A stretch of 64,000 nucleotides of DNA, from positions 1-64,000 of the forward strand of contig NZ_RMBX01000020.1 in NCBI RefSeq assembly GCF_003807585.1, in the 5' to 3' direction. The notes beneath the pieces were generated by a model. That model made no database searches. It was not told where the DNA came from and saw only the letters and a list, made by a program, of their open reading frames with translations. A program made the translations under genes and the position numbers. Below, piece after piece: positions 121 through 49,571 of the stretch. Source of the DNA: Chitinophaga barathri (GTDB lineage: Bacteria > Bacteroidota > Bacteroidia > Chitinophagales > Chitinophagaceae). How positions within the stretch are numbered: the stretch's first letter is position 1; every line of letters begins with the position of its first letter.

Positions 121-189
121 GACTGGCTTTTTAGGCCCCTTTTAGCAATATCTTGTTTTGAAATCCCTGTCATGCTCCTGATAGCATAT

Positions 190-266
190 TAACCGGATCA
201 GCTCCGGATCAAGTCCGCCTCATGTCCACCTCAACTCCGCCTTGCCTATATCTCTCCTATATCTAC
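190..266. repeat. Degenerate 11-bp tandem repeat array, locus 1
   Basis: Seven consecutive 11-bp units keep exact phase: taaccggatca, gctccggatca, agtccgcctca, tgtccacctca, actccgccttg, cctatatctct, cctatatctac. Adjacent units differ by a few bases, so sequence drifts along the array while the period is fixed. Shifted by a few bases, 241-262 reads cttgcctatat-ctctcctatat; the second of these units occurs exactly, and the first at 10 of 11 bases, on the opposite strand at 48478-48543. The array is intergenic, between the end of the Dabb gene and the terminator at 91-120. Function unknown. Confidence 0.75.
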
Positions 267-365
267 CATAGCTGATTTCCGGTTATTACGGGGTAGGTTC
301 GCAGTTCGTTTCCGGCAAAAGGCAAAATACTATCATATCAGGAATCCGATACTCCTTTGTCTTTA

Positions 366-689
366 TTACAACTCTATCGTTTCCGAATCGAAGATCACTA
401 CTTTATCCCACAGCATATTGCAGTTTTCGATGAACTCCAGGTGCACCGGATGTTCCTGGTAAACGTCGTGACCGGCTTCGTCGTTAAAAACGGTGAGCAG
501 GCAGTAGCTGTAGCTCCTGTCTATCACCGGGCGGTCTGTAGCCGCGGGTTTGCCCACATTAAACACGATCAGGCTTTCAATTTTCCCGAGTGAGCTTACG
601 CCTTCCTCGAATTTTTTCACATCTGCGGCGGACAGGTCCGGCTTCAGATAGAAATTAACAACGTGCACGAATTTTTTTGTTGTGGGCAT
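366..689 (-). CDS. Dabb (stress-responsive A/B barrel) family protein
   Basis: A 107-residue protein with the size and pattern of a single ferredoxin-like Dabb domain: FVHVVNFYLKPDL at the start, a central GKIESLIVFNVGKP strand, and the EHPVHLEFIEN segment near the end that is typical of the family. Dabb proteins are small dimeric barrels; some are stress-induced and others catalyse cyclisations, so a specific reaction cannot be assigned. It begins 5 bp after the amidohydrolase gene and is the last gene of the ABC-permease/amidohydrolase run. No signal peptide is seen, so it should be cytoplasmic. Confidence 0.8.
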   Translation of the reverse strand: MPTTKKFVHVVNFYLKPDLSAADVKKFEEGVSSLGKIESLIVFNVGKPAATDRPVIDRSYSYCLLTVFNDEAGHDVYQEHPVHLEFIENCNMLWDKVVIFDSETIEL

Positions 690-47886: not shown

Positions 47887-48339
47887 ATGAAACACACTAA
47901 ATCCCTTCATGCCCGCAAAAGGATTGCGCTGATTGCACATGACCATAAAAAAGCGGAATTACTGGAGTGGGCCATTTACAACAAAACGGTGCTCACACGG
48001 CATGAACTGTGGGCAACGGGTACAACCGGGAAGTTGATCGAAGAGTCCCTGGACGTATCAGTCAGGAAACTGCTGAGCGGGCCGTTGGGCGGGGATCAAC
48101 AGATCGGTGCGGCTGTTGCTGAAGGGCGTATTGATGTGATCATCTTTTTCTGGGACCCTATGGAGGCATTGCCCCATGACCCGGACATCAAAGCCCTGCT
48201 GCGGCTGGGCGTGGTATGGAACATCCCGATGGCCAGCAACCGGGCCTCCGCGGACTTCCTCATGACCTCACCGCTGATGCACCAGGAGTACACCGTAATC
48301 CTGCCGGATTACAGCCAGTACCTCGGCCGGAAAGTATAA
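47887..48339 (+). CDS. mgsA: Methylglyoxal synthase
   Basis: A 150-residue enzyme with ALIAHDHKKAEL, LWATGTTGKLIEE, SGPLGGDQQIGA (phosphate binding) and IFFWDPMEALPHDPDIKALLR, a close match to MgsA. It converts dihydroxyacetone phosphate to methylglyoxal and phosphate, bypassing lower glycolysis when sugar phosphates accumulate. Cytoplasmic, monocistronic, with a well-formed promoter. Confidence 0.96.
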   Translation: MKHTKSLHARKRIALIAHDHKKAELLEWAIYNKTVLTRHELWATGTTGKLIEESLDVSVRKLLSGPLGGDQQIGAAVAEGRIDVIIFFWDPMEALPHDPDIKALLRLGVVWNIPMASNRASADFLMTSPLMHQEYTVILPDYSQYLGRKV

Positions 48340-48477
48340 CCCCCGGTCTTTTTCCCGTCTGAATTCCACATAAGGCCTATGAAAAAGGGGCTGGTTCAAA
48401 CCGGCCGGGGAGATGTTTTTCTGCAAAGCTGCCCTTATCCTGTCGCTTTTTAATCAAATCTGATAGTATTTTACCCA

Positions 48478-48543
48478 AAAGCATGAGCATATACGAAGCA
48501 TATAGGATCGATATACGATCGTTATAGGCAAGATATAGGAGAG
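48478..48543. repeat. Degenerate 11-bp tandem repeat array, locus 2
   Basis: Six 11-bp units in exact phase on the plus strand: aaagcatgagc, atatacgaagc, atataggatcg, atatacgatcg, ttataggcaag, atataggagag. The approximate consensus is atatagganng. Reverse-complemented, units 5 and 6 read cttgcctataa and ctctcctatat; the second is identical to, and the first one base from, units at locus 1 (241-262). The array lies between convergent mgsA and DUF3500 genes. Function unknown. Confidence 0.78.
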
Positions 48544-48566
48544 CACAGCGAAAATACCACCAGTTT

Positions 48567-49571
48567 CTACCGGTGGGCACTCTTATAGTGTTCTTTCAGC
48601 ATATCTTCCCCGAAATCGTTTTTCAGGTCGCGGAAGGTGGTATGTACGTGGTTCGCGTTGTTTTGGGTATTGTCGTATTCTATCACGAAAGTCGGGCCCT
48701 GGATGCGGTAATAATGACCAATGCCCCACTTCCGGCCCCCGGCCCAGGCAAAATGTACGTTCTCCCAGCCTGCATTTTCCATTTCTTTCCACATCACTTC
48801 GGCCATCAGTTTGGTATAGCGGTCCACGTAAAGGGCGATGAGCATTTTCAGCTGTCTTTGCTCGCCGGGGTTCAGTTTGGCATACCCGAGGCCCGGAGGG
48901 TCCTGCAGCCAGGCCTTTCTTTTGTTGCTCGTGATGATGTCCGCCGGGGCCTTTTCAGCGATCACGGCCTCTTTCAGCTGTTGTTCATTCAGGCTGTCCA
49001 GCAGTTCAAAGGCCAGATCGGCTTCTTCCTTTAGTATCTGCTGCCCTTTCTTCGGGCCGTCCGGCACAATGGCCGGGTTGGAGCCCATAAACATCGGGCT
49101 GCCGGTCATCCATTTGTTTTCCAGCGCGGAGAAGTTCAGCGAAAGATGATGCCCTTCCACCCGCCAGCCCCAGGGTTTTCCCGCAGCGGGATCGCCAAAG
49201 ACGGAAAAGTAATATTTGCCCGCATCGCGGTAATCATCGTTTTCTCCCCGGCCTTCCAGCGCGCGCAATACATATTCCAGCTGCACGATGGCGGTGGCTT
49301 TGGTATAACCGTTGTTGCTCATGCAGCGTTTCAGCAGTGCATAAGCTGCCGTGCGCTGGGTTTCGTTCATTTCTTTTAAGGGAAGCCCTTTCCTGGCGCG
49401 GGGTACAAAATGCCAGTTGTACCGCTCTTCGTCATCCCAGCTGAATTGCGTTTTGGCAAGCAATTCTTTATCCAGCGTGCGGAGGAATTGCTGTGCGGCT
49501 TTTTCAGCGGTCTGAGCGGGCGCCTTGCAACACACAACTGTAAATAATATGATCAGGAGAATCTTATGCAT
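48567..49571 (-). CDS. Exported DUF3500 domain protein
   Basis: A 334-residue protein with a signal peptide ending APAQ. The mature sequence shows the DUF3500 pattern: RYNWHFVPRARKGLPLKEMNETQR (read in part), RALEGRG, PWGWRVEGHHLSLNF, NPGEQRQLKMLI and VHTTFRDLKNDFGEDMLKEH. The family is widespread in environmental bacteria with no assigned reaction; conserved His, Trp and Asp residues suggest an enzyme. It is divergent from the GHL10 gene. Confidence 0.87.
   Translation of the reverse strand: MHKILLIILFTVVCCKAPAQTAEKAAQQFLRTLDKELLAKTQFSWDDEERYNWHFVPRARKGLPLKEMNETQRTAAYALLKRCMSNNGYTKATAIVQLEYVLRALEGRGENDDYRDAGKYYFSVFGDPAAGKPWGWRVEGHHLSLNFSALENKWMTGSPMFMGSNPAIVPDGPKKGQQILKEEADLAFELLDSLNEQQLKEAVIAEKAPADIITSNKRKAWLQDPPGLGYAKLNPGEQRQLKMLIALYVDRYTKLMAEVMWKEMENAGWENVHFAWAGGRKWGIGHYYRIQGPTFVIEYDNTQNNANHVHTTFRDLKNDFGEDMLKEHYKSAHR

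Follow-up and report, generated by a model that had tools for sequence, protein, structure and literature searches.

An 11-bp tandem array in Chitinophaga barathri is, in our preferred reading, the interior of a short non-autonomous element that belongs to a large Chitinophaga family, would have spread in the manner of a MITE and would be constrained in its helical phase. We consider the case for and against this reading evenly balanced, because we found no target-site duplications, clean empty sites or autonomous partner. The array lies at 48478-48543 of the 64,000-nucleotide stretch that was analysed (the window). On an 11-bp grid starting at 48479 it reads AAGCATGAGCA TATACGAAGCA TATAGGATCGA TATACGATCGT TATAGGCAAGA TATAGGAGAGC, i.e., one degenerate unit followed by five clear units of TATA type (48479..48544, forward strand). 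The array of the original prediction is thus real, and its count of six in-phase units was slightly generous, since the first unit on the grid is degenerate. Identity at lag 11 is 36 of 55 positions, where about 14 are expected at 25% identity. In a scan of the 64 kb at periods 7 to 24, with identity counted over 55 positions, the sole segment with a higher lag-11 count was a second array near the start of the window (locus 1, 37/55), and the next separate segment reached 29/55; the best segments at other periods (35 at period 9, 33 at period 21) were found elsewhere. The two loci had been said to share two units on opposite strands and in reversed order, and this is exact: CTCTCCTATAT has one copy at 252 and a reverse-complemented one at 48533, and CTTGCCTATA one copy at 241 and a reverse-complemented one at 48523.

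The true unit is wider than the array. It spans 48461-48562 on the forward strand (102 bp) and is bounded by degenerate terminal inverted repeats (TIRs) of about 15 bp: TGATAGTATTTTACC on the left (48461..48475, forward strand) and the more degenerate GCGAAAATACCACCA on the right (48548..48562, forward strand; 4 mismatches to the pattern used). It matches the profile R1, built from 34 copies of its subfamily (type i), with an E value of 4e-19, which is not independent evidence because the window element is one of the 34 sequences. The array was correctly placed between two convergent genes. On its left is an MGS-domain (methylglyoxal synthase domain) protein (47887..48339, forward strand; PF02142), and on its right a DUF3500 protein (48567..49571, reverse strand; PF12006) whose stop codon is 4 bp from the element.

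Searching the C. barathri genome at the DNA level with the array and its flanks returned 14 places at E 0.001 or better, query counted, and the flanks of these places revealed shared termini of approximately TGATRGTATWTTNNC (left) and GNTAAAATANTAYCA (right); the TIR of the family is of the TGATRNTATWTT type. The TIR pattern had 32 matches in the genome, against 6 for a reversed control, and the array pattern with up to 3 mismatches had 52 overlapping matches, against 0 for the reversed-pattern control. The case envisaged against a dispersed family, a genome scan finding only these two loci, therefore fails. R1 gave 52 matches at E 0.01 or better. Since some of these coincide with the motif of a second subfamily (at least three among the 46 matches listed: C3:126898, C11:328906 and C23:27973), we put the number of type i copies at about 45-50.

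Locus 1 belongs to this second subfamily (type ii). Its element (179..335, reverse strand, 157 bp) lies 30 bp from the 3' end of an ORF of 107 aa (366..689, reverse strand), and has the same kind of ends, with units such as GAGGTGGAGAT and GAGGCGGACTT in its right part. A 26-base pattern from the right part of type ii had 43 matches at 42 places in the genome, and its control none. The two loci of the window belong to two subfamilies sharing end type and some units, and are not two copies of one element. The prediction of one dispersed repeat family is thus supported, and the family is larger than supposed; its two loci fall in sister subfamilies, and the repeating entity is the TIR-bounded element and not the array. 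Units in the C. barathri genome are of the types TATASGATCG, AGCAASGATAG and TCGAASGATNG; elsewhere we found AAGCGAASGAG in C. alhagiae, and ACAAGGAGAAG and AAGCNNCCTGA in other species. The family is short, multi-copy, non-coding and TIR-bounded, as MITEs are. Overlap with an ORF of 240 nt or longer exceeded 30 bp in 7/44 type i and 4/28 type ii copies, two of the seven type i copies overlapping ORFs above 1.3 kb, so some elements, though few, may run into the end of a gene.

The C. barathri genome contains further 11-bp arrays. A third architecture, with two opposed 11-bp arrays around a core of about 35 bases, was seen at five loci there (L027, L032, L041, L044 and L047; core ..CGGGTTTGAGGGTGTTT..), at L133 in genome G014 and at L140 in G042, the last with partly different unit types in its two arms. 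Arrays of GCATA/ATGCTTTT-type 11-bp units occur at L033, L042, L381 and in the flank of L086 in C. barathri, and at L333 (G003) and L334 (G059), where they continue into GGTGGA-type units and so seem to link both types. More tandem repeats of about 11 bp, of GTGTAGACCCG and GGTTAGACGTA types, stand directly outside type i elements, in the flanks of L012, L094, L088 and L021. Repeats resembling a sequence with CGTCATTGCGAGGAGC occur in other bacteria; this sequence is found beside the arrays of L027, near 1560-1680.

The TIRs are kept as sequence and show no pairing covariation. With the two ends treated as the arms of a stem, pairing was at least equally good in 488 of 500 shuffles. The idea that the TIRs form a stem, as RNA or as a cruciform, was rejected for lack of covariation, and a known RNA family was likewise rejected, with 0 Rfam matches at gathering score in 10 sources (92,011 bases). 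Because they are conserved as sequence without pair covariation, the TIRs are probably read as DNA by a protein. We found no target-site duplication in 51 elements, comprising those 23 of 34 type i copies whose ends had no more than 3 mismatches each, plus 28 type ii copies (duplications of k 2-9 at offsets from -3 to +3; from k 4 upwards there was no excess). Nor was an autonomous element with a type ii left end and a transposase gene found in the C. barathri genome at up to 2 mismatches: of 28 left-end matches (control 3), 25 carried the type ii motif, one was a type i copy, one carried another 11-bp array and one neither. Dozens of copies without evident coding capacity, together with the absence of elements from many orthologous sites (see below), point to mobilisation in trans, and the TIRs would be recognised as sequence by a trans-acting recombinase.

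The elements occur in length classes. Measured from TIR to TIR, the classes in C. barathri lie about 11 bp apart, at 91, 101, 122, 134, 145, 157 and 167 bp. Type i copies (n=34) are of 91 bp (2) or 99-103 bp (32), and type ii copies (n=28) of 121-122 (4), 134 (1), 145 (3), 156-158 (18) and 167 bp (2); a TIR pair was missing at two of the 30 type ii loci, and L085, which has a poor left end, was excluded from alignment and counts. With all 62 lengths pooled, the resultant R is 0.86 at period 11 and 0.53 at 10.5, peaking at 11.15. The seven class centres, which were grouped by hand, fit period 10.96 (R 0.92), a value reached by 0.6% of random centre sets. Elements from other species gave 90 (1), 99-101 (19) and 112-113 bp (2) where 85-175 bp were allowed; this set of 22 was obtained from 37 loci, reduced to 24 sequences by removing duplicates and loci without a TIR pair, and by dropping two pairs (92 and 110 bp) as spurious. 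The rule is not exact, since type ii alone fits best at 11.65 (R 0.94, against 0.87 at 11), and ten relatives in genome G053, of 147-148 (7), 159 (2) and 143 bp (1), are shifted by about 2 bp from the C. barathri classes. Two loci in genome G052 measured 121 and 124 bp, and the script found no TIR pair in 7/20 motif loci from four other genomes. Tandem arrays change by whole units anyway; that unlike interiors should fall near the same length classes is less expected.

Within elements, the 11-bp phase holds throughout. Lag 11 was the best of lags 5-18 in 34/34 type i, 28/28 type ii and 22/22 other-species elements, with a mean lag-11 identity of 0.54-0.61 against 0.27-0.28 in shuffles (84 elements). 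The left part of type ii keeps the 11-bp phase with an A at two unit places and a C as its most constant letters and the rest nearly free; where letters are free, lag-11 identity is 0.40, against about 0.24 at other lags. Such persistence of phasing would also fit the main rival to our reading, that a host protein wraps the element. The copies would then be docking sites, contacted once per turn by a DNA-wrapping or ring-forming protein (e.g., a nucleoid protein, gyrase-like wrapping, or a ribbon-helix-helix protein like ParR), and selection would keep them in place. There are precedents, as given in the excerpted texts of the respective papers: gyrases have periodic GC preferences of 10-11 bp (PMC12324340), gyrase cleavage sites are over-represented in BIME-2 (PMC6379681), and ParR of plasmid R1 requires at least two 11-bp repeats (PMC9426499). 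Docking sites maintained by the host nevertheless seem somewhat unlikely to us. Unit sequences differ widely within one genome, and the GC periodicity seems not to be general: it is 3.08 at period 11 in C. barathri type i, peaks at 12 (6.03, with 2.31 at 11) in its type ii, and in 24 other-species sequences (two of them spurious) stays near background (1.01 at 11, 0.54-1.08 at other periods tried), so that GC phasing as a general rule found no support in C. barathri type ii or in the other species. On our preferred reading of a MITE-like element, the fixed phase would reflect the need of a short element to bring its two ends together on the same face of the helix. The interior would keep both ends on that face and be contacted about once per turn by the recombinase or by an architectural protein; with the ends kept in phase and one contact per turn, spacing would be under stronger selection than letters.

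Type ii copies are unevenly diverged. Among 18 copies of 156-158 bp, the 39-bp left part is 0.425 identical, no better than the 0.457 of independent draws from column frequencies, and the right 82 bp are 0.856 identical. Type i had first been gathered by unit patterns and type ii by the 26-base right-half pattern, so that lag-11 and right-half conservation are partly conditioned by collection; sets found by TIR only or by left end only served as checks. Of 28 matches collected by the left end only, 25 carry the right-half motif, and 23 copies thus collected are 43% identical on the left and 82% on the right, or 77% on the right without the 26-base motif. Copying of whole elements would predict even divergence, and the 43% against 77-82% in type ii speaks against it. 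Ten copies in G053, collected by the right-half motif, show the same pattern with other sequence (left 0.436, right 0.816). Unequal divergence in two species suggests constraint in place, as host-maintained docking sites would have it. It would also be produced by dedicated diversification, in which templated or error-prone synthesis would rewrite particular modules, much as a diversity-generating system acting on DNA sites might; in its favour are the C. barathri left part, no better than independent draws beside a conserved right part, and the like contrast in G053. We judge dedicated diversification improbable, since relaxed constraint on the left, with the right held by selection or gene conversion, would give the same picture. 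Moreover, the left-right correlation, 0.05 over 153 pairs among the 18 copies, is 0.32 over 253 pairs in the left-end set, so the two parts are not fully decoupled.

By the window locus, the nearest of 79 genomes is G052 (85% identity over 3.5 kb), which has 14 R1 matches. Ten of them lie at loci homologous to C. barathri element loci, three being matched on one side only (L219, L223 and L236), and eight pairs were compared end to end. The unit type is outright different in four of the eight (C. barathri TCGAA against TATA twice, AGCAA against TATA, and TATA against TCGAA), the unit mixture differs in two, and both members are TATA in two; that unit type differs at orthologous sites is a further point for dedicated diversification. 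TIR identity is 0.742 in the eight orthologous pairs and 0.670 in 328 non-orthologous ones (reached by 9 of 4000 random matchings), against 0.606 and 0.581 for the interior (reached by 570 of 4000). The TIRs thus still record the past of their site, a record that is almost gone from the interior. The arrays thus seem to change in place while the TIRs keep locus-specific letters, which disfavours re-insertion as the cause of the change in unit type. Under the MITE-like reading, modules would turn over in place, probably via slippage and exchange between dispersed copies, which would give rise to lineage-specific unit types.

Elements are also gained and lost between the two genomes. Of the window element, only the right part is present at the corresponding site in G052, and the same intergenic region in the more distant G011 and G005 is without the element, by eye. 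For 26 of 30 further type i loci of C. barathri a place could be assigned in G052, with alignment of both flanks in 18 cases; no R1 match of G052 overlaps any of these places. Eleven junctions read by eye in G052 had no full element, and two of them (L256 and L267) had a TIR-like remnant alone; with a full element in C. barathri, these lone ends suggest decay by internal deletion. Remnants of this kind would also be left by neutral minisatellite debris persisting between genes, a reading we find very improbable, since drifting DNA is not expected to form length classes or to keep its ends conserved across several species. At type ii sites with both flanks aligned (n=9), G052 has no element in eight and a diverged relative in one; at two of the eight (L286 and L297), hundreds of further bases are also missing. 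Insertion polymorphism between relatives is thus observed between C. barathri and G052, with no clean empty site among the G052 sites read, as extra DNA is absent along with the element. Comparing 20 type ii loci of G082, G053, G052 and G054 with C. barathri, we found only three matched locus pairs. That many sites are not common to G052 counts against host-maintained docking sites. Within G052, L233 (1483-1610) and L243 (1970-2097) are 97% identical over 128 bp, longer than the distance from TIR to TIR, and the sharp ends of these copies may mark the true unit of copying.

Both arrays had been predicted to lie next to gene 3' ends, which is partly borne out, in type i and not in type ii. Of 44 type i copies examined, 40 had both neighbours called, and 20 of these stand between convergent genes, compared to 9 of 35 junctions in the window (uncorrected p 0.036); type ii shows no such preference (7/26, 28 examined, p 1.0). 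Divergent junctions are under-used (9/66 vs 11/35, uncorrected p 0.039). The control for these comparisons is the set of 35 junctions of one 64-kb window, the window's own element sites included, with gene calls made on a simple longest-ORF basis. This set replaced a first control (4/45 convergent), which was biased because its loci had been chosen around elements. The enrichment between convergent genes is therefore modest and limited to one subfamily: in type i it would favour host-maintained docking sites, and its lack in type ii speaks against them. An association with intrinsic terminators, which reading of the flanks had suggested, was not significant (13/72 vs 2/31 control gaps, p 0.22) and was rejected.

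Across the genus, R1 matched in 12/40 genomes and the 26-base type ii pattern in 26/79, C. barathri counted in both, with no control matches for the latter. Some relatives have the same ends with other 11-bp units. An exact TIR-pair pattern with 56-86 free bases, a narrow test, found 13 stretches in a collection of species. Chitinophaga accounts for ten of them (C. alhagiae, C. niastensis, strain SYP-B3965 and a MAG), all of 99-101 bp where 86-116 bp were allowed. The remaining three are from MAGs named Prevotellaceae bacterium, bacterium and Candidatus Lokiarchaeota archaeon; visual inspection of these showed no 11-bp array, and one has an AT-rich repeat of longer period. The TIR pattern was well above its control in G011 (22 vs 2) and G014 (21 vs 5), and little above it in G031 (24 vs 11) and G043 (11 vs 7). 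G007 has 87 R1 matches; those read (L131 and L143) have some ten units of 11 bp, whose order is roughly palindromic, and lack clear ends of the TGAT type. Viral contigs had no match to two exact patterns, and plasmids and phages had none with one query each.

Several known systems resemble the Chitinophaga family in part. Porphyromonas gingivalis is in the same phylum as Chitinophaga. The closest precedent that we found is its BrickBuilt element, a MITE with an internal minisatellite, which in the excerpted text of the paper has 19 copies and is likewise small and intergenic, with inverted-repeat ends around a tandem array (PMC4596501). The same text gives it a 23-nt unit, 1 to 22.8 units, a total of 84-991 nt and IS5-family-like TIRs, whereas the Chitinophaga element has an 11-bp unit, length classes of about 11 bp, TIRs of its own type and several unit types per genome; neither the 23-nt unit nor IS5-like TIRs were found in it. 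REPs and BIMEs are also short, intergenic and present in many copies, but REPs, as excerpted, are palindromes of 20-40 bp (PMC3733652), and here we see direct repeats and TIRs without pairing covariation. The units are not palindromic, while some other C. barathri arrays are inverted (L027, L032). The parC centromere of plasmid R1, bound by ParR, has 11-bp direct repeats too; it is a plasmid site of parMRC, in contrast to dozens of chromosomal copies with varied units, and no par gene directly adjoins the window site (the three neighbouring proteins scanned for parM/parR linkage are MGS, DUF3500 and NifU). Finally, class A flexible patterns, in the excerpted description, are a diffuse 11-bp genome bias covering up to half a genome in stretches of at most 50 bp (PMC1242344); the 11-bp period is common to both, and the Chitinophaga element is bounded where that bias is not.

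A bolder reading, which we think unlikely, is that helical phase itself is what is inherited: each module between the TIRs would span one turn, the number of modules would change by whole-turn steps, and their letters would be rewritten in place, at times hypervariably in particular modules, with the frame preserved. Such a trait would require a protein that senses DNA one turn at a time, and some means of exchanging or rewriting modules. These results describe a repeat family of Chitinophaga, with no earlier report of such repeats in the genus among the open-access literature matches listed. If the MITE-like reading is true, selection on spacing and helical phase, and not on letters, would be readable from the length classes of a natural element, and the family would offer a test system for how short elements join their ends and how bacterial repeat arrays get rewritten.
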